A DNA stretch of 64,000 nt from the NCBI GenBank assembly GCA_011525785.1, contig WYBT01000038.1, positions 62,001-126,000 of the forward strand. Reading direction: 5' to 3'. A program made the translations under genes and the position numbers. The notes under the pieces are model-generated. The model saw nothing but the letters and a program-made list of their open reading frames with translations, did no database searches and was not told the DNA's origin. The stretch's first letter is position 1, and the number at the start of each line of letters is the position of its first letter. Positions 32,460 through 49,142 of this stretch are shown here, piece after piece. The DNA comes from Planctomycetaceae bacterium (GTDB lineage: Bacteria > Planctomycetota > UBA1135 > GCA-002686595).

Positions 32460-33788
32460 CTACGTCCCGCGTACCCGAACCAACTGGTTCGAGGCGTCCG
32501 GCTCTGCCGGGACTGAAGCCACGCTCGGCTTGATGCGTCCATGGCCCTCCGTGCGTGGCCTGGTCGCGACCTCCAGATTGTCCGCCAGGTTGTGCATCTG
32601 GAGCCACTCGGCGTGTGTGAACGACGAAGACTGGGTGACGACTGGAATGGCGTCGTTGCTCTCCACGAGCTTCCAGCGCTCGCGCTCTTGCTCAAGCGCA
32701 GTGCCCCGCAGAAGCATGAGCGGGAAGGCGCGAACGACCGAGACGCCGCGCTGGTGGCACCAGTCCACGCTCGCGCGGAACGAGTCCAGCGTCTGCTCGG
32801 GCAGTCCGTAGATCAGAGACACTTCGAAGGGGATACACGATGCACGGAGCATCCCAAGCGCAGCATCGACCTTCACCAGGTTGTTGGGCCGTCCGATCGC
32901 GCGCATCTCGCGCTCATGAATCGTCTGAAGACCAAACTCCAGGTGAACGTCAAGGCCGCTGCATGCATCCAGGAACGATGCCGTGAGAAGCTCGAACCGG
33001 CACTGAAGCGAGACGCGCCCTCGGTACCCGAGATCTGCGAGTGTCCGGAGAATGGCCTCGGCGTGCGGGTTTATGTTGAAGACGGGATCGAGGACTGCGA
33101 GGTCCTTCACGCCGGCGGACGCGATGACCTGCAATTCCCTGAGCACGCGTCCCTGCGGGAGAACGCCGAACCGCATGCGCGAGCCCGACTCACGGTGCTG
33201 GCAGAACGAACAGGAGTATGGGCATCCACGCTGCGCCTCCCAGCGCAGGAACGCGCTGGGACGGAGCACTCCCGTCAGCAGCGGTGAGGGCAGATCTGCG
33301 AGATCGGGACGAGCCGAGTGCGCGGAGTGATCCGCACCGCGCAACGTCACACCGAGTGGAAGCAACGCACCATCTGAGGCAACGAAGTCGGCGAGCGCGT
33401 CTTCGGCGTAGCCGCGGATGAACACGTCGGCATCCGGGTACAGAGCATCGACCCCGATCGGGCTGAAGCTCACTTGAGGGCCGCCGAGAATGATGCGCCC
33501 TGTGAAGCCTGCTCTGCGAAGGGCCGGGAGCAGCCACCGGATGACTGGCTCATTCCAGATGAACGCACCGATCGCGACGAACGCAGCGCGACCTCCGGTT
33601 GCGTCGAGGATCGCCGCAAGCACGCTCTCCTTGCAGAAGGTTGGCGCGTTGACGGCGAAGGACAGCGACGTGACTTGGACCGAGGGCTCCACGGCCAGCC
33701 GTGCGAGGAGCGATGCGTGCCCGAGGGAGAGCGAGGGGTCCTTGGCCCTGCCCCAGTCGAGCGACAGGACGACGAGGTGAGCAGTCAC
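32460..33788 (-). CDS. B12-binding-domain radical SAM protein
   Basis: A 442-residue protein. The start is GTG 33788, supported by GGAGG six bases upstream and a GTGA overlap with the stop of the preceding small gene. The N-terminal half is a cobalamin-binding Rossmann-like domain (about 3-150), with I-I-L-G-G-P-Q-V and Y-P-D-A-D-V-F-I-R-G-Y-A-E-D as in B12-binding radical SAM enzymes. The cluster motif is C189-P-Y-S-C193-S-F-C196, followed by the TIM-barrel motifs H-L-E-F-G-L-Q-T-I and L-I-Y-G-L-P. The substrate cannot be told. Base composition is less GC-biased than in the flanking chromosome. It belongs with the two upstream minus-strand genes. Confidence 0.85.
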   Translation of the reverse strand: MTAHLVVLSLDWGRAKDPSLSLGHASLLARLAVEPSVQVTSLSFAVNAPTFCKESVLAAILDATGGRAAFVAIGAFIWNEPVIRWLLPALRRAGFTGRIILGGPQVSFSPIGVDALYPDADVFIRGYAEDALADFVASDGALLPLGVTLRGADHSAHSARPDLADLPSPLLTGVLRPSAFLRWEAQRGCPYSCSFCQHRESGSRMRFGVLPQGRVLRELQVIASAGVKDLAVLDPVFNINPHAEAILRTLADLGYRGRVSLQCRFELLTASFLDACSGLDVHLEFGLQTIHEREMRAIGRPNNLVKVDAALGMLRASCIPFEVSLIYGLPEQTLDSFRASVDWCHQRGVSVVRAFPLMLLRGTALEQERERWKLVESNDAIPVVTQSSSFTHAEWLQMHNLADNLEVATRPRTEGHGRIKPSVASVPAEPDASNQLVRVRGT

Positions 33789-34168
33789 TTGCCACCTCCA
33801 AGGGAACGCGAGTCGCGACTGGGATGACCGGCAGCCAGTCGGGCACACAACGCGTTCGGATGAGGAATACGCCGGAACGGCAACCAGGGAAGGCCGAAGC
33901 GGGCACACAGCTCGCGGATCTTTCGTCCGTGGCTCGTCCGAGTGAGGCCGGACAGCCACAAGACGAGCGAGATGTCGCGTCGCTGAAGCGTTGGCTCGAA
34001 GCTGGATGCTGAAGCATCGGTTCTCCGTGTCGGGCAATGCACGACAGCGGACAGTTCAAACGCGCGCGCGAGGCGATCGAGGGCCGGATCGCGGGGGTCG
34101 CCCCCGATGACCACGAGCGTGCCTCCGCGCAGCGCGGAGACGTGAAGAGAATCAGATTGTGAGTGCAT
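33785..34168 (-). CDS. Small DUF2325-like protein
   Basis: A 127-residue protein translated with the radical SAM gene (GTGA overlap). The core T-L-V-V-I-G-G-D-P-R-D (about 16-26), then R-D-I-S-L-V-L-W-L-S-G-L-T-R-T-S-H-G-R-K-I, then F-G-L-P-W-L-P-F-R resembles DUF2325. In that family a GG loop, a strand ending in a Thr/Ser-His pair, and a final hydrophobic strand recur. The match is by eye and not certain. ATG 34168 has no clear Shine-Dalgarno; the frame stays open upstream to 34396, overlapping the 606-residue gene, so the start is unsettled. Function unknown. Confidence 0.5.
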   Translation of the reverse strand: MHSQSDSLHVSALRGGTLVVIGGDPRDPALDRLARAFELSAVVHCPTRRTDASASSFEPTLQRRDISLVLWLSGLTRTSHGRKIRELCARFGLPWLPFRRIPHPNALCARLAAGHPSRDSRSLGGGK

Positions 34169-34283
34169 GTGAAAACCAGAGCCATGCGAGAGACCGGAAC
34201 CGTGTGGTCCGATCGAAGCGGTTTCGTGCGACGCCCAAGGGGCAACGGAGGCCAGTTGGTCCTCCAAGTCGCGGATCGAGTTG

Positions 34284-36104
34284 TCAGTCGGAGTTCGGTG
34301 CGCAGCCGTCGAATCGCTCGGCCTCCTTCGTGCGGGAGAGTTCCTTCTCGCGCGTTCTCTGCGCGAGGTCGTGGTCGGGCTGGATTCCCAGCCCAAGCAG
34401 GTGTGCCTGTCGCAACCACCAAAGCGCGGACATCACCGCACGTCGCGGCGAGACGCGCTCGGGGAGTCCTCGCGCGTGGCGAATGGTCTCGTACGCCCGC
34501 TTGGCTGCGTCGCGAACGTGCTGGTGAGGGTCGTGCTCTGACGACCAGTAGAGCGCGCGGTGACCTCGGCCCTCCGGGTTGGACCGAAGGTCCATCACGG
34601 CGCGGACCATGCAATAGCGCCACTCGTGCGACGGCTCCACCATGTCGGCGTCCACACGCGCGCGGCGTCCGCTCTTCAGTTCATTCCGCACGTCCTTGCG
34701 ATCTGTCAGCCTCTCCAGGCAATAGGCTGCGAACGCCTCGCGAAGTTCAGACAACTCGGGATCGGACTCTTGCTCGTGCTTGGCAAAGGCATGCACGAGA
34801 CCCGCGAGTCGCGCTGGGAACTCGGACCAAGGTGCTGGCGCCGGACCCTCCACGTAGTCGTCCCAGTAACGCAGGTCTCGGGCCACGCACGGCGTGCCGA
34901 GCGCCCGCATGCCGAGCAGCAACGGCTTCATCCCGCGCCAGATACCACCATGCCTCCCGAGCGTCTCGATGCATTGGTCGAAGTGAGGGCGCATTCGTGA
35001 GAACTGGCGGGCTTCTGGCGTATCACCCTCGACGCGGGCTCCCGCGAGCATCGGCCGGAGACGCGAGAGTTCCTCGGTCGCCATCGACAACGCGCGGGCC
35101 TTGAGGGCATCCGGGCAAGCCTCTGGCCGTGAATCCCACGACATCCGGAAGTAGAGCAACCACATCGGCCGGAGGGCGTGTGCTGTGGACCCCTCCGCGG
35201 CTTGAAGCACGCCGTCCAGGTGCTCGAAGTAGGGGGCAATTGTCTGCCGGAAGGCTTCGTCCGCCTCGTGGAACGCAGTGAAGTGCCGCTCGCACAGCGC
35301 ACCAAACTTGTCGACGATCGCCTCTGCGAACGAGGTTGCCAACGCAGGCAGCGACTCGGAATCTGCACTGGTGAAGGCGGGCAAGGCCTGTCTCAATGCC
35401 TCGTCCCCCATGTACCACACCCAAGTACGCAGTGAGCGCGTGCTGCGCCAGGACACACCGTCGTTCCATGTGATGGCCGCGTTGCAAATGGACGCACCTG
35501 GTGGATTCCACTGCCCATCTGCACCGGCGGTTACCATTGCTTCGACGTCGATGACGCAGGCGAGGTCAACAGCCCGTGTGGAGAGAAGCACATCACCAAG
35601 CCTGCGAAAGCGGTCGTACTCGAGAAGTCCGAAGTCTCGTGTCCAATCCCGAATCAAGTGGTCGGGCCATCCCTTGCGTAGGAGACGGTTGAAGTCGACG
35701 CCATGGCTCTGCATCTCCGAGACCACGCTTGTCCAGCTTGACTTCGGGAGCGACCACACACCGGCATAGCCGCGAGGTTCCCGCGGGTAGCTCAGGTTGG
35801 GAAGTTGGACGCAGGTGGCCAGCGCACCCAGTACGAGCAAAGCGGCAGCATCGCGGTCGTCGTTCCCCGCGAGAGTCCAAGCCGAGGCAAACGCCTTAAC
35901 GTTGGACTGCTGGCGATCGAACTGACTTCCGGAGTCGGCCCCGGTTGTTGGCAGCACTCGGAGCAACAGAGGAGCGAGCCATGCAGCATCCTCCTTGGGC
36001 CAACCGCTATCGATCAGCAGGCGTTCGGCCAACCGTTGATCGCGGCCCGGTGTCGGCGCGTCCGGGTCGACGATGTAGCTCGGCGGCTTTGTGAATTTCG
36101 GCAT
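34284..36104 (-). CDS. Uncharacterised 606-residue protein
   Basis: I do not recognise this protein. It is soluble, has no signal peptide or membrane helix, and is rich in Trp, Arg and Leu, with predicted helices throughout. Conspicuous segments are W-P-D-H-L-I-R-D-W-T-R-D-F-G (about 150), a region around C-N-A-A-I-T-W-N-D-G-V-S-W-R-S-T-R-S-L (about 210), R-D-L-R-Y-W-D-D-Y-V (about 420) and L-Y-W-S-S-E-H-D-P-H-Q-H-V-R-D (about 535). No nuclease or ATPase motif is evident. GGAG lies nine bases before ATG 36104. With two downstream minus-strand genes it may form an operon, beside a Type III restriction-modification locus. Codon use is less G/C-ending than in most of the window, consistent with transfer. 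Confidence 0.7.
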   Translation of the reverse strand: MPKFTKPPSYIVDPDAPTPGRDQRLAERLLIDSGWPKEDAAWLAPLLLRVLPTTGADSGSQFDRQQSNVKAFASAWTLAGNDDRDAAALLVLGALATCVQLPNLSYPREPRGYAGVWSLPKSSWTSVVSEMQSHGVDFNRLLRKGWPDHLIRDWTRDFGLLEYDRFRRLGDVLLSTRAVDLACVIDVEAMVTAGADGQWNPPGASICNAAITWNDGVSWRSTRSLRTWVWYMGDEALRQALPAFTSADSESLPALATSFAEAIVDKFGALCERHFTAFHEADEAFRQTIAPYFEHLDGVLQAAEGSTAHALRPMWLLYFRMSWDSRPEACPDALKARALSMATEELSRLRPMLAGARVEGDTPEARQFSRMRPHFDQCIETLGRHGGIWRGMKPLLLGMRALGTPCVARDLRYWDDYVEGPAPAPWSEFPARLAGLVHAFAKHEQESDPELSELREAFAAYCLERLTDRKDVRNELKSGRRARVDADMVEPSHEWRYCMVRAVMDLRSNPEGRGHRALYWSSEHDPHQHVRDAAKRAYETIRHARGLPERVSPRRAVMSALWWLRQAHLLGLGIQPDHDLAQRTREKELSRTKEAERFDGCAPNSD

Positions 36105-39776: not shown

Positions 39777-41000
39777 ATGGCGCACTTGGAAGGGCTGACG
39801 ATCCGCAGATACCGAGCGCTCGCGGATGTGACGCTCGGCATGACGTTTGAGCACCAAGACGCCGATCCCCTCGCGCGGATCATCGCGGTGATCGGACCCA
39901 ACGGAGCGGGGAAGTCGACGCTTCTCGATGCGCTCGGGTTCCTCGGGGACTGCATGCGTGGTGGAGTCGACGAGGCATGTGATGCAGCACACCGTGGCGG
40001 GTTCGAGCGCCTGCGCACGAAGGGCGAGCGTGGGCCGATCGAGTTCGAGCTGTACTACCGGGAGACCGAGGACTCTCGCCCGATCAGTTACTCGCTGGCC
40101 ATCGATCTGGACCGAAAGGGACGGCCGTTCGTGGCCAAAGAGCGACTTCGGCAACGAAGGAAGGGACTGAAGCGTGGAATGCCGTTCTCTTTCCTCGAAC
40201 TGAAGAGAGGCCGGGGGCTGGCTTGGGCGGGTGATGCGACGAGTGAGGAGGAAGCTGCTGACAAGCTCTCCGTGAACCTGCCCGATCATCAACGCTTGGG
40301 GATCGTGACGCTTGGCAACCTCGCGGAGCATCCAAGAATCGTTGCGTTCCGCGAGTTCTTGGAGGGGTGGTACCTCTCTTACTTCGTGCCCCAGAGCGCA
40401 CGGCTGCTGCCGATGTCGGGGGCGCAGAAGCACCTCGACCGCGCCGGCCAGAACCTCGCCAACTACGTGCAGCATCTGGAGCGCGCGCACCCGGATCGGT
40501 TCGCCAAGGTTCTGGCGAGGATCGCGAAGCGCATCCCCGGCGTGCGCACCATCAAGACCGCCAAGTCGGACGACGGCAGGTTGCTCATCCAGTTCAACGA
40601 CCGCGGCTTCGAAGACCCGTTCTACGCGCAGGACGTGTCCGACGGATCGCTCAAGCTGTTCGCCTACCTGCTGCTTCTAGAAGACCCGGAGCCTGCGCCG
40701 CTGATCGGCATCGAAGAGCCGGAGAATGGGCTCCATCACCAACTGCTCCCAACCCTCGCGGACGAGATGCGCAAGGCCGCGGAGAGTCCGCGCGGCCCGC
40801 AGATCTTCGTGACGACGCACTCGCCGTATTTCGTCGATGCCCTGAGCGCGGAACAGGTTTGGATCGTCAACAAGGACGAGCGCGGTCACTCGCGGTTCGA
40901 GCGCGCCGCCGATCAGCCCACTGTGAAGGACCTCGTGGCGGAAGGGATGCCGCTCAGCAGCCTCTGGTCAGCAGGTGACTTCAAGCACGCCAACCCATGA
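39777..41000 (+). CDS. AAA (ABC/OLD-like) ATPase embedded in the restriction-modification operon
   Basis: A 407-residue ATPase of the AAA_21/OLD-like type. Walker A is G40-P-N-G-A-G-K-S-T; an ABC-type signature appears as D-V-S-D-G-S-L-K-L-F; Walker B is L-I-G-I-E313-E-P-E-N-G-L; and a switch histidine lies in T-T-H-S-P-Y-F. No nuclease domain is fused, so the effector is probably the next gene product, a TOPRIM-like DUF4276 protein that overlaps it by four bases. ATPase-TOPRIM pairs of this sort (OLD, PARIS and AbiL types) are phage-defence effectors. It starts one base after the mod stop, and codon use is less GC-biased than in res. Confidence 0.85.
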   Translation: MAHLEGLTIRRYRALADVTLGMTFEHQDADPLARIIAVIGPNGAGKSTLLDALGFLGDCMRGGVDEACDAAHRGGFERLRTKGERGPIEFELYYRETEDSRPISYSLAIDLDRKGRPFVAKERLRQRRKGLKRGMPFSFLELKRGRGLAWAGDATSEEEAADKLSVNLPDHQRLGIVTLGNLAEHPRIVAFREFLEGWYLSYFVPQSARLLPMSGAQKHLDRAGQNLANYVQHLERAHPDRFAKVLARIAKRIPGVRTIKTAKSDDGRLLIQFNDRGFEDPFYAQDVSDGSLKLFAYLLLLEDPEPAPLIGIEEPENGLHHQLLPTLADEMRKAAESPRGPQIFVTTHSPYFVDALSAEQVWIVNKDERGHSRFERAADQPTVKDLVAEGMPLSSLWSAGDFKHANP

Positions 41001-41626
41001 CGTTCTTGAGGGTGTGCGTGGAGGGCGCGTCCGATGAGCCGGTCGTGCGCGAGGTGCTCGTGCGGAAGCTGGGGCTTGCACGGGATGCCGATTTCGTCGT
41101 GCTGGTGCACGACGGAAAGGGCAAGCGTCGGACGCAGGTATCCTCGCCGCCGGCAGGTCGTCGGGGCTTGCTCGATCTCCTACCGAATCGGCTGAGCGCA
41201 TGGTCGAAGGCAGCTCGCACCCAAGACTTGGCGATCGCGGTTCTCGTAGACGCGGACGACGAAGACTGCCGTGATCTGAAGCAGCACCTTCTTTCGCTGG
41301 ATCATCGCCCATCGCGGACTCTATTCCGCATCGCGGTCGAGGAGACCGAGTCGTGGTTTCTCGCGGATCCCCAGGCTATTTGCTCCGCGTATCCCAAAGC
41401 CCATGTTGACCGCATACCGCGCAGTAGCATCGATCGAGTGATCGGCGCGACGGAAGTGCTAGCGCGCGTGCTCGGCGACTCTACGGGGCGACCGAGCGAG
41501 ATCAGGAAGAAGGAGTGGGCAGAGGCAATTGCTCCGCACCTCAACCTCGACCAACCTGCTTCGCCCAGCTTGCGTGCCTTCATCACTGGACTCGAGCGCT
41601 TGCTCGAAATGGACGGTCGTTCATGA
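40997..41626 (+). CDS. DUF4276-like (TOPRIM-related) protein, partner of the ATPase
   Basis: A 209-residue protein overlapping the ATPase stop (ATGA) and the res start (ATGA). It begins C-V-E-G-A-S-D-E-P-V, a TOPRIM-type acidic N terminus (E9), then contains A-I-A-V-L-V-D-A-D-D-E-D (DxD) and R-I-A-V-E-E-T-E-S-W-F-L-A-D, the signature I associate with DUF4276. The Glu and DxD acids could bind metal for nuclease activity; this is inferred from the TOPRIM fold and not shown. It most likely acts with the upstream ATPase as an abortive or nuclease effector. Confidence 0.75.
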   Translation: MTFLRVCVEGASDEPVVREVLVRKLGLARDADFVVLVHDGKGKRRTQVSSPPAGRRGLLDLLPNRLSAWSKAARTQDLAIAVLVDADDEDCRDLKQHLLSLDHRPSRTLFRIAVEETESWFLADPQAICSAYPKAHVDRIPRSSIDRVIGATEVLARVLGDSTGRPSEIRKKEWAEAIAPHLNLDQPASPSLRAFITGLERLLEMDGRS

Positions 41627-44966: not shown

Positions 44967-47015
44967 ATGCGCATCTACCTGGCCGACCTCGGCCACAACC
45001 TGCTCACGAAGAGTTCGGATGTGTATCCGCTCGGAGTCGCGAACCTGGCGATGTTCGCGAAGGCTCATTTCGCGGCGCATCGCCCGCAAGAGCCGCTGGA
45101 GGTCGAGCTCTTCCGAGAGCCGCAAGATTTGAAGCGCGCGCTCGATGCGCGGGCGCCCGACGTCCTGGGGCTGTCGAACTACGCCTGGAACGAGGAGCTC
45201 AGCTACCACTTCGCGCAGTACGTGAAGGCGCGGTCGCCGCGGACGCTCGTAGTGATGGGCGGGCCGAACTATCCGCTCGTCGACAGCGTGCGCGAGAGCT
45301 TCCTGCGCGCGCTACCCAAGGTCGACTGCTACGTCGACGGCCCGACCTACGAAGGCGAGCGAGCGTTCGTGAACCTGCTCGAGCGCTTCCTCGCGGCCGG
45401 GCGGCGCGTCGAAGGGCTGCGCGAGGAGCGCACCGCGGGCGTCGACTGGATCGACTCGCGCTCGGGTGAGTTCGTGCGCGGCGGCGAAGTCGAACGCATT
45501 CGCGACCTCGACGAGATCCCCAGCCCCTACCTCGCGGGCCTGATGGATCCGTTCATCCCCACGGGCTACTTCCCGATGATGCAGATCTCGCGCGGGTGCC
45601 CGTTCACCTGCGCCTTCTGCAACAGCGGCGTGCGCTCGAACAACCGCGTCTTCGCGCACTCGATCGACAACGTCAAGGCCGACCTCGACTACCTCGCGCA
45701 GCGCATCAAGCCGCAGATCACGCTGTGCTTCGCCGACGACAACTTCGGCATGTTCGAGCGCGACGAGGAGATCGCGGACTACATCGGCTGGCTGCAGGAC
45801 CAGTACGGCTGGCCGCGCTACATCCGCACGACGACCGGCAAGAACAAGGGCGAGCGCATCATCAAGGTCATGCGCAAGGTGCGTGGCGCGCTGCCCATGA
45901 CGGCCGCGGTGCAGTCGATGAACCCGGTCGTGCTCAAGAACATCAAGCGCGACAACATCAAGCTCGAGACCTACCGCGAGATCCAGCGCGAACTCGAGAG
46001 CCAGGGGATGCAGAGCTACGGCGAGTTGATCCTGTGCTTGCCGGGCGAGAGCAAGCAGAGCTTCCTCGACGCCGTCGAGAAGCTGCTCGACGCCGGCGCC
46101 AAGCGCATCTCGGCGCACCAACTGATGCTGCTGCACGGCGCGGAGCTCGCCAATCCCGACGAGCGCGCGAAGTTCGGCTTCGACACGCGCTTCCGCGTCG
46201 TGGCGCGCAACATCGGCGACTACACCGGAGAGCCGGTGATCGAAGTCGAGGAGATGGTGGTCGCGACGCCGGATTTCAGCTTCGCCGACTACCTCGAAAC
46301 GCGCGTCTTCCACCTGCTCCTCACGATCTTCCACTACGAGGGCAACTACGACGAGCCGTTCCAGTACGCGCGCCAGCGCGGCGTCAAGCCGTTCGAGCTC
46401 GTGCGGCACATGCAGACGCTGCTTGCGTCGGCGCCAGCGGCGTTCAAGCGCGTGCTCGACGACTTCGTCAAGGAGAGCCAGGAGGAGATCTTCCCCACGC
46501 GCGAGGCCTGCCTGGAGTGGGCGCGCGCGCACTACGCGCAGCTCGTCGACGGAACGCTCGGCGGCAACCTGCTCTCGAAGTACTCGATGCTCGGCCGCTT
46601 CTACACCACGCGCGAGTCGCTCGACTTCCTCCGCGCCGCCATCGCCAGCGCGCTGGACGCGAAGAACGGCTCGCACGACGCGCGCGAGCTCGCTGCCGTG
46701 ATCGACCACGTCCGCAACCTCGCGCTGCACGTGCCCTTCGCGCAAACCGCGCTCGAGCGCAAGCGCTGGACCTCGCACTACGACGTCGAGGCCTGGGCCG
46801 GCGCCGGCTACTCGCGGCCGCTGGCGGAGTTCGCCTTCGAGCGGCCGCGCGAGCTGTCGGCCGAGGCCACCGACGCGACCCGCGCGCTGATCCTGGCCAA
46901 GGTCGAGGCCTTCGGCGAGCACGCTTCCGGCCTGGGCAAGTTCACGCGTACGATGTTCGCGCGGGATCTGCGCCGCGCGCTGGTGCGCGAGGGAGCGGCG
47001 CTCGCACGCCCCTGA
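44967..47015 (+). CDS. B12-binding-domain radical SAM protein
   Basis: A 682-residue protein. The N-terminal cobalamin-binding-like domain (about 1-150) has L-G-L-S-N-Y-A-W-N-E and V-V-M-G-G-P-N-Y-P. The radical SAM core starts with C211-P-F-T-C215-A-F-C218-N-S-G, and the metal-and-substrate face includes C-F-A-D-D-N-F-G and L-I-L-C-L-P-G-E-S. A 200-residue helical C-terminal region follows. ATG 44967 starts directly with the expected first strand, MRIYLADLG. The glycosyltransferase gene begins 17 bp after its stop, so the pair may modify a lipid or polysaccharide; the reaction is unknown. Confidence 0.85.
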   Translation: MRIYLADLGHNLLTKSSDVYPLGVANLAMFAKAHFAAHRPQEPLEVELFREPQDLKRALDARAPDVLGLSNYAWNEELSYHFAQYVKARSPRTLVVMGGPNYPLVDSVRESFLRALPKVDCYVDGPTYEGERAFVNLLERFLAAGRRVEGLREERTAGVDWIDSRSGEFVRGGEVERIRDLDEIPSPYLAGLMDPFIPTGYFPMMQISRGCPFTCAFCNSGVRSNNRVFAHSIDNVKADLDYLAQRIKPQITLCFADDNFGMFERDEEIADYIGWLQDQYGWPRYIRTTTGKNKGERIIKVMRKVRGALPMTAAVQSMNPVVLKNIKRDNIKLETYREIQRELESQGMQSYGELILCLPGESKQSFLDAVEKLLDAGAKRISAHQLMLLHGAELANPDERAKFGFDTRFRVVARNIGDYTGEPVIEVEEMVVATPDFSFADYLETRVFHLLLTIFHYEGNYDEPFQYARQRGVKPFELVRHMQTLLASAPAAFKRVLDDFVKESQEEIFPTREACLEWARAHYAQLVDGTLGGNLLSKYSMLGRFYTTRESLDFLRAAIASALDAKNGSHDARELAAVIDHVRNLALHVPFAQTALERKRWTSHYDVEAWAGAGYSRPLAEFAFERPRELSAEATDATRALILAKVEAFGEHASGLGKFTRTMFARDLRRALVREGAALARP

Positions 47016-47925: not shown

Positions 47926-47982
47926 CGGGCATTTGGATTGAAAAATGAACGCAGCGCGTCGATATTTCAAGCTAAATGCCCG
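47926..47982. promoter_or_regulatory. Inverted repeat overlapping the start of the AAA_14 ATPase gene
   Basis: Two 18-base arms (47926-47943 and 47965-47982; CGGGCATTT-n3-TTGAAA and its complement) differ only in the central three bases. The sequence is AT-rich for this genome. The ATG of the ATPase (47976) lies in the right arm, so a bound protein or an mRNA hairpin here would block translation or transcription. Confidence 0.55.
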
Positions 47983-49142
47983 AATCGGTCGTCCGCCTCG
48001 CGCTCCTCGAGCTGCTCCACCAGCGCTTTCGGGGAGCACCCATCGTCGCCCTGCTCGGTCCGCGCCAGGTCGGCAAGACCACGCTCGCGCGGCAGCTGGC
48101 GGCGGCTGCCGACTCAGCCACCGTCTTCGACCTCGAGGATCCGCGCTCGCTCGCGCGCCTCGAGCATCCGCTGAGCGCGCTCGAGCCGCTCGAGGGCTTG
48201 GTCGTGATCGACGAGATCCAGCGTCGGCCGGAGCTGTTCGAGCTGCTGCGCGTGCTCGTCGACCGCGAACTCTCGAAGACGCGCTTCCTCGTGCTCGGCA
48301 GCGCCTCGCCAGCGCTCATCGCCGACGCGACCGAGACGCTCGCCGGGCGCGTGTCGTTCGTCGACGTCACGGGCTTCGATCTCGGTGATGTCGGAGGCGA
48401 GCACTTCGACTCGCTGTGGCTGCGCGGCGGCTTTCCGCGCGCGTACCTGGCCGAGTCCGACGAGCACAGCGCGCAGTGGCGCGAGGACTTCGTCCGCACC
48501 TTCCTCGAGCGCGACCTGCCGCAACTGGGCGTCAAAGTTCCCGCGCCGACTCTGCGCCGCTTCTGGACCATGCTCGCTCACTGGCATGGGCAGGTCTGGA
48601 GTTCGGCCGAGTTCGCGCGCTCCTTCGGCGTCTCCGATCCAACGGTGCGTCGCTACCTCGACACGCTCAGCGCCGCCATGGTCGTGCGCCAGCTCGCGCC
48701 CTGGCACGAGAACCTCTCCAAGCGCCAAGTGAAGTCGCCCAAAGTCTACGTGCGGGACAGCGGCCTGCTGCACGCGCTGCTCGACTTGCGCACACACGAC
48801 GAGTTGCACAGCCACCCCAAGCTCGGCGCCTCGTGGGAGGGCTTCGCGCTCGAACAGACTCTCGCGATCACAGGCGATCGCAACGCCTACTTCTGGGCCA
48901 CGCACGCCGGCGCCGAACTCGACCTCCTGTGGATCCGCGGCCCCGCGCGCTACGGATTCGAGTTCAAGTTCGCCGACGCGCCGCGCACCACGCGCTCGAT
49001 GCAGCACGCGCTCGCCGACCTGCGCCTCGAACGTCTCTTCATCGTGCATCCAGGCCGCGAGTCGCACGTGCTCACCGAGCGCATCGACGCGCTCTCGATC
49101 AAAGACCTGCCCGTGCGGTTGCGCGAGCTTGCTGGGCGTTGA
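47976..49142 (+). CDS. AAA_14/DUF4143 ATP-binding protein
   Basis: A 388-residue predicted ATPase of the accessory 'ATP-binding protein, DUF4143' type. Walker A is G-P-R-Q-V-G-K-T-T (about 29-37), Walker B is L-V-V-I-D-E-I-Q-R, and a sensor-like L-G-S-A-S-P follows. The central part contains a winged-helix-like F-A-R-S-F-G-V-S-D-P-T-V-R-R-Y-L-D-T-L. The C-terminal DUF4143 region ends in a nuclease-like G-A-E-L-D-L-L-W ... F-E-F-K-F-A pattern with acidic and lysine residues. Function is unknown and the family is widespread in mobile regions. Its start is embedded in an inverted repeat. Confidence 0.88.
   Translation: MPESVVRLALLELLHQRFRGAPIVALLGPRQVGKTTLARQLAAAADSATVFDLEDPRSLARLEHPLSALEPLEGLVVIDEIQRRPELFELLRVLVDRELSKTRFLVLGSASPALIADATETLAGRVSFVDVTGFDLGDVGGEHFDSLWLRGGFPRAYLAESDEHSAQWREDFVRTFLERDLPQLGVKVPAPTLRRFWTMLAHWHGQVWSSAEFARSFGVSDPTVRRYLDTLSAAMVVRQLAPWHENLSKRQVKSPKVYVRDSGLLHALLDLRTHDELHSHPKLGASWEGFALEQTLAITGDRNAYFWATHAGAELDLLWIRGPARYGFEFKFADAPRTTRSMQHALADLRLERLFIVHPGRESHVLTERIDALSIKDLPVRLRELAGR

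Follow-up and report, generated by a model that had tools for sequence, protein, structure and literature searches.

The stretch of DNA that we analyzed, which we call the window, is 64,000 nucleotides from a Planctomycetaceae bacterium (assembly GCA_011525785.1, contig WYBT01000038.1, positions 62,001 to 126,000). Our subject is a set of three minus-strand genes in this window and a structured RNA that lies between the first two. The genes encode proteins of 606 amino acids (P1, 34284–36104), 127 amino acids (P2, 33785–34168), and 442 amino acids (P3, 32460–33788). An earlier note had described these three genes, the overlap of P2 and P3 (GTGA at 33785–33788), and the gap of 115 bp between P1 and P2 (34169–34283), and we found them all as it said. 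It had also claimed that the set has a deviant base composition, which we confirmed: the GC content at third codon positions (GC3) is 0.75 for P1 and 0.67 for P2, and about 0.78 for P3 (from a range one base short, with its columns shifted by one), as compared to 0.87–0.94 for five of the six other window genes that we measured (the sixth, HEC-01A, has 0.80). A terminator that it had placed at the edge of the set was not borne out: the sole terminator-like match is inside P1, and there were fewer matches than in shuffled sequences. As for the gap, the note had the length right but overlooked both the structured RNA within it and the swapping of the genes that follow.

P3 is a radical S-adenosylmethionine (SAM) enzyme, probably of the cobalamin (B12) type, as had been suggested from the sequence. 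It matches PADLOC's candidate defense family PDC-M51A (PDLC04689) at full length (405 residues, 458 bits, E = 5e-138). Its radical-SAM domain matches PF04055 (E = 1.2e-14), and the cysteines of its CxxxCxxC motif (C189, C193, and C196) are invariant in all 10 members that we aligned. The B12-binding domain (PF02310) scores 23.9 bits, which is under the cutoff of 32.1. The best NCBIfam relative of P3 is KedN5, and the P3 profile aligns with TokK and CysS over their N-terminal two thirds. None of the 25 NCBIfam families listed for P3 (of 28 that matched) was a viperin model, and its PADLOC matches, taken to E = 1, included no models for prokaryotic viperins (pVips). A search of the available literature found no paper that names PDC-M51.

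We used PDC-M51A to search 154 genomes of the class. There were many background matches to radical-SAM proteins and just four loci above 340 bits (including the window), all of which carry P1 and P2 arranged as they are here. The next match, at 160 bits (L006, or L035 in a wider slice), is without P1. All three genes are present together in 4 of the 154 genomes, counting the window's, and the gene order that the other three share with it shows that the arrangement did not arise by chance. In each of the four three-gene loci (the window, L032, L033, and L034), P2 and P3 overlap by four bases (ATGA or GTGA); the start codons of the relatives, including these and the high-GC loci, were picked by hand.

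P1 is the constant part of the system. Searches of Pfam, NCBIfam, PADLOC, and PHROGs returned nothing for the window's P1; across the 31 relatives in alignment A6, nothing was above noise in Pfam; and comparing the P1 profile to the PDB gave noise-level matches and none that was credible. The genes co-occur and the large protein has no housekeeping match in any of these five databases, so neither of the two outcomes that the earlier note had named as refutations applies. The predicted model of P1 is nearly all helical, with a mean predicted local distance difference test score (pLDDT) of 85.6 and a predicted template modeling score (pTM) of 0.84, and we predict that P1 is an alpha-solenoid with an ARM/HEAT-like arrangement. 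"ARM/HEAT-like" is a description and not a family membership, because the best Foldseek match was not significant (E = 0.027) and the best VIA Z score was 9.2, below the level of 13 that is advised for helical repeats. The model is a helical solenoid, yet neither tool made any one family stand out as its kin.

A first scan of genome contigs with P1 alone found no relatives. A further contig scan gave 34 loci in Planctomycetota, Poribacteria, Latescibacteria, Verrucomicrobia, Deltaproteobacteria, and, more distantly, Spirochaetia, or about six phyla. P1 was present in 5 of 392 genomes from its own phylum (widening the profile gave 6, including a marginal one), in 17 of 84 genomes of Poribacteria (two fragmentary or weak), and in 3 of 240 genomes from the phylum of the Verrucomicrobia locus (including the starting genome). 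There were no relatives of P1 in plasmid or phage records. Two loci from Spirochaetia MS499 (L078 and L079) have a distant relative of P1 (87 and 77 bits) without a recognized effector, by which we mean the gene or genes that follow P1.

What follows P1 varies. We compared 46 distinct loci, all with P1; genes were called with our own caller, and effectors were assigned by profile or single-sequence search. (The count drops the repeats L051, L052, L053, L058, L060, L110, and L126, of which the last two equal L069 and L080; L035 and L127, which have no P1; the re-fetched copies L081–L122; and the marginal hits G532, G581, and G278. The near-copies L047 and L140 were both kept.) The next gene is viperin in 13 loci and a PDC-M51A-type enzyme in 11, four of them with P2. 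Another B12 radical-SAM enzyme is present with P2 in two loci, a class II ribonucleotide-reductase-like protein in one, P2 alone in three, and a beta-CASP nuclease alone in seven. Overall, P2 is directly downstream of P1 in 9 loci, and a radical enzyme is next to P1 in 27. By this tally, the window's P3 sits in the slot that viperin occupies elsewhere. Furthermore, in L044, the viperin downstream of P1 (pVip, E = 1.7e-67) carries a fused nucleotide-kinase domain of the PDC-M51B family (E = 3e-28). Since M51B, which is PADLOC's partner for M51A, is thus a kinase domain on a P1-linked viperin, M51A and viperin are both tied to kinases. Separate kinases follow viperin in six loci (L062, L063, L066, L067, L072, and L073).

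A few loci have unusual genes after P1. The ribonucleotide-reductase-like protein (L046:3587–5350) is below the model's cutoff (NrdJ_Z, E = 6.9e-98), and its active-site region reads APCAE instead of the usual NPCGE, so its chemistry may differ. A GRDP-like protein with a cysteine-rich tail (L054:6021–6476; PF07173, E = 2.3e-13) and an open reading frame without a Pfam match (L048:12001–12396) are possibly further types of effector.

The association also holds in reverse. Of the viperins above the family cutoff in the 84 Poribacteria genomes, 4 of 5 are directly downstream of P1, as are 6 of 6 M51A-type enzymes that pass 1e-60. The exception is the viperin of genome G572, where P1 is on a different contig. 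In a blind test, two genomes from the Verrucomicrobia phylum were found with the P1 profile alone, and viperin is the next gene in both. Together with the conserved gene order, the reverse test led us to reject chance adjacency.

Closely related P1 proteins can have different effectors. On a tree of P1 from 42 loci (leaving out L077, L078, L079, and L140), the partner changes at least 20 times, as compared to a minimum of 7. Sister pairs with support of 100/97 or better combine viperin with an M51A-type enzyme (L073/L075 and L067/L068) or an M51A-type enzyme with a nuclease (L059/L064). When the DNA of L067 and L068 is aligned, homology extends across the chromosome, P1, and the RNA, is lost over the effector, and returns beyond it. 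Between L073 and L075, homology runs through P1, and the leader of L075 matches the second leader of L073, which is the one before its nuclease.

The gaps between P1 and the effector share a fold: an outer stem opens, two hairpins follow, the outer stem closes (forming a three-way junction), and there is a further hairpin before the start of the effector. In the window, the conserved RNA is at 34175–34276 on the minus strand, with the three-way junction at about 34228–34272 and the second hairpin domain continuing to the start of P2. (The window is one of the eight seeds of our model R1, so it matches that model by construction.) In an alignment of eight gaps from Planctomycetota (A10), the 7 pairs have 10 cells that changed on both sides, and 90.8% of cells are paired; none of 500 shuffles was as high on compensatory cells or on score. 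For 14 gaps from Poribacteria and Latescibacteria (A12), 8 pairs have 19 compensatory cells and 91.5% of cells are paired, and again 0 of 500 shuffles was as high. Sliding the pairing partners abolished the signal in both alignments. These counts are biased towards structure because the structure was derived from the same alignments.

Two other kinds of evidence, a shuffle test on gaps outside the seeds and genome-wide searches with the models, are free of this bias. The three-way junctions of 11 divergent non-seed gaps were better than those of dinucleotide shuffles (p ≤ 0.05 for 7 of the 11; Fisher p = 4e-7), while none of 55 control windows beat its shuffles at p = 0.05. For L033, L055, L141, L048, and L049, the script's best three-way junction differs from the one that we see by eye, and under strict rules L050 has none. 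In six loci, conservation is similar for the RNA (68–83%) and for the coding DNA next to it (67–86%). Across 392 Planctomycetota genomes, strong matches to R1 (E = 3e-16 or better) were found at just three P1 loci, all seeds, and the next best match had E = 0.004; we treated weak matches (under 29 bits, in 10 of the 13 genomes listed) as chance. In the 84 Poribacteria genomes, our second model, R2, had 11 matches below 1e-10, of which 10 are in gaps between P1 and the effector and one precedes the viperin of G572. Two further matches (E = 3e-9 and 7e-6) are ahead of nuclease genes that come after an effector, and several loci have one copy of the RNA per effector. Weak R2 matches in G563, G574, and G513:C167 overlap coding frames (in G574, antisense), and these too we treated as chance. 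Viral contigs scanned with a DNA pattern gave no match.

Other features of these gaps are worth recording. At L066:13317–13387, L073:12212–12285, and L074:6247–6307, a second copy of the RNA immediately precedes a beta-CASP nuclease gene, which in turn comes after the first effector. Between P1 and the RNA, 15 of the 18 gaps from Poribacteria and Latescibacteria that we searched by script have a small open reading frame, mostly of 45–60 amino acids and usually rich in glycine, lysine, and asparagine, with a strong ribosome site (AAGGAGGTGA). Examples are L061:5059–5223 and L062:4767–4925; the two small proteins that we compared to Pfam had no match.

We considered that the RNA could be an ordinary cis-regulatory leader, such as a riboswitch or attenuator for a metabolite (a nucleotide, SAM, or cobalamin), and that P1 could be unrelated to it, for instance as a scaffold for the effector. 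The RNA is just upstream of the effector's start, in several loci with one copy for each effector; it precedes a viperin that has no P1 beside it; and a three-way junction of this size is riboswitch-like. However, the same RNA is shared by effectors with different cofactor needs (viperin, the B12 enzyme, and the nuclease), so a common signal fits better than a cofactor. Rfam had no matches at the gathering score in the gaps of seven loci, and even at relaxed E-values, the gaps of L068 and the window gave nothing but noise and no riboswitch. Also, strong copies of the RNA are confined to P1-type loci and that one viperin without P1. We consider a free-standing metabolite leader less likely than not.

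The element could also be a DNA recombination site, similar to the attC sites of integrons, that serves in the exchange of effector cassettes and has no function as RNA. This would account for the several loci that have one copy per cassette and for the syntenic loci where effectors swap and homology breaks near the element. But paired positions have more G-U than A-C cells (40 to 12, p = 1.3e-4), which points to selection on a single strand as RNA, and therefore the gene-sense strand is the RNA. Furthermore, the flanking chromosome and P1 align as ordinary homologous DNA, and in the Poribacteria loci that we read by eye, we noticed no integrase directly beside the effectors (L065 has a recombinase-like gene downstream), although genes from mobile islands or phages flank some of the Planctomycetota loci. 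We consider this explanation improbable.

P2 had been labeled as DUF2325-like. Four of eight family members do match this family below Pfam's cutoff (best E = 7.2e-5; the two PF10087 scores shown were 20.4 and 14.9 bits, versus a cutoff of 33.6), but for the window's P2 itself, none of Pfam, NCBIfam, PADLOC, and PHROGs gave a match. In its predicted model (pLDDT 79), P2 appears to have a Rossmann-like fold. The top VIA matches for this model are MID domains of Argonaute/PIWI proteins (Z = 8.5 over 105 residues at 3.4 Å). We do not claim that P2 is related to them, as Rossmann folds of unrelated proteins reach 7.4 and the Foldseek search ranks aminotransferases higher. Judging from titles and abstracts, none of the papers on DUF2325 that we found is on defense.

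Some of these loci are phage cargo or are near other defense genes. In L042 (P1 and P2) and in L141 (P1 and viperin; the contig is from IMG/VR), the two genes lie in inverted orientation between the portal genes (phrog_12 and phrog_21) and the terminase genes (phrog_9 and phrog_38) of prophages. In L043, a phrog_9 terminase adjoins P1 and P2. BrxC follows the set in L032, with other BREX genes that we recognized by eye, and L033 is near a phage-type integrase. The window's set has a Type III methylase, a HEC-01A/B pair, and a Type III nuclease as its neighbors, with PDC-S01 further along. The earlier note allowed for modification of a protein, a nucleotide, or DNA for defense, or else for an unrelated metabolic island. 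The prophage cargo, the defense-island neighbors, and the exchange with viperin favor the former, and from these we infer defense itself. In the alternative, the genes would form a biosynthetic island in which P3 is a C-methyltransferase for a secondary metabolite, and P3's best relatives in NCBIfam and the PDB (KedN5, TokK, and CysS) agree with this. But P3 interchanges with viperin, the distribution is patchy, some loci sit inside prophages or adjoin BREX, restriction, or HEC-01 genes, and we noticed no other biosynthetic genes in the loci that we read by eye. A metabolic role therefore seems quite unlikely.

We propose that these loci belong to a modular family, and we think it probable that the family is anti-phage, with a constant P1, a constant three-way-junction RNA, and an exchangeable effector cassette. 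What we observed directly is the gene order and that it recurs across phyla, that effectors are swapped, that the RNA covaries, and that some loci are phage cargo or lie in defense islands. The window's cassette is P2 with P3. Other loci have viperin in its place (some with and some without a nucleotide kinase) or an M51A-type enzyme that P2 does not accompany; still others have a different B12 radical-SAM enzyme, the class II ribonucleotide-reductase-like protein, a beta-CASP nuclease, or P2 by itself. Because of the exchange with viperin, we favor a nucleotide as the substrate of P3, and the window's effector is probably a viperin-like radical enzyme that acts on nucleotides. P3 would use radical B12 chemistry to modify a nucleotide or a related small molecule, by a logic like that of viperin, and P2, as a putative Rossmann-type protein, may bind or deliver the nucleotide. 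The RNA would be P1's handle on the expression of the effector, or else a free riboswitch. Most speculatively, P1, with or through the RNA leader, might sense infection and release the synthesis or activity of the effector. More tentatively still than for the family as a whole, and with about as much doubt as for a metabolite leader or slightly less, we suggest that P1 and the leader could be an undescribed infection-sensing ribonucleoprotein switch that drives interchangeable antiviral effectors, including viperin and a second class of radical enzymes, dependent on cobalamin, that would make antiviral nucleotide analogues.

Several points weigh against this proposal. Nine of the 46 loci have no recognized effector within reach. 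(Three of these, L069, L077, and L123, stop no more than 1.1 kb short of the contig's end, and the beginning of a nuclease gene is visible in L077.) Models R1 and R2 do not detect each other's sequences, so the link between the RNAs of Planctomycetota and Poribacteria is one of position and shape. In the gaps of L044, L046, and L045, the three-way junction is no better than in shuffles, and the RNA is weakened at the loci that have just the nuclease. The M51B kinase (PDLC04690) has no match among the 11 window proteins scanned, and no kinase was reported near P1 in the window slice. The nearest solved relatives of P3 are antibiotic-biosynthesis methylases (TokK, E = 7.9e-38, and CysS, E = 5.4e-34). 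That P1 binds RNA or senses phage is something we infer, and all of the support for an anti-phage family is computational.

The family overlaps with several known systems. TokK and CysS, which are cobalamin-dependent radical-SAM methylases and act in antibiotic biosynthesis, are the closest solved relatives of the P3 profile, but those enzymes are longer by about 200 amino acids, and the context of P3 is defense-like. Relative to PADLOC's candidate PDC-M51 (M51A with M51B), P3 is M51A, whereas M51B is lacking among the window proteins scanned and P1 and P2 have no PADLOC match. In cyclic oligonucleotide-based antiphage signaling systems (CBASS) and in retrons, one conserved module has exchangeable effectors, and retrons also have an RNA; the P1 system is similar in both respects. 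However, in the P1 loci that we read by eye, we saw neither a cyclase nor a reverse transcriptase, and P1 and its RNA match no family that we searched.

The comparison to pVips is the closest. The nucleotides with a 3′-deoxy-3′,4′-didehydro (ddh) sugar are chain-terminating. Viperins produce these ddh-nucleotides, which halt viral RNA synthesis (PMC10732462, PMC10865869). Viperin is itself an effector at P1 loci, sometimes with a nucleotide kinase, and P3, in viperin's slot, is also a radical-SAM enzyme, but probably of the cobalamin type. The published contexts of pVips, in the excerpt that gives them, are HicA and RelE (PMC10865869), and kinases appear in PADLOC's names; these contexts do not mention P1 or the RNA. 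Similarly, none of the literature that we saw, including passages of PMC10907252, PMC10732462, and PMC10865869, describes either one. Near viperin genes in L127 (6181–6456) and L139 (3524–3790), we saw by eye small RelE-like open reading frames, which agree with the published linkage of viperin to RelE and HicA (PMC10865869).

Farther from the set, a PADLOC scan confirmed the adjoining Type III restriction locus that the earlier note had described and found the HEC-01A/HEC-01B pair there as well (39777–41626; the first is also AriA-like), within the operon and with the methylase on one side and the nuclease on the other. Beyond this locus are a second, distant radical-SAM protein (44967–47015; PDC-M51A, 71.7 bits) and a PDC-S01 protein (47976–49142).

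What is new here is that a constant protein of no known class occurs together with an RNA that has not been described and with effectors that can be exchanged; the majority of the effectors are from known families. To our knowledge, it is an open question how bacterial viperins are switched on. If our proposal is correct, the control of viperin would take a concrete and testable form: a constant protein and an RNA that precede viperin, an unrelated B12 radical enzyme, or an RNA nuclease. It would also predict a second chemistry for making antiviral nucleotides. And the swap pairs, with their closely related P1 proteins and differing effectors, would be natural controls.

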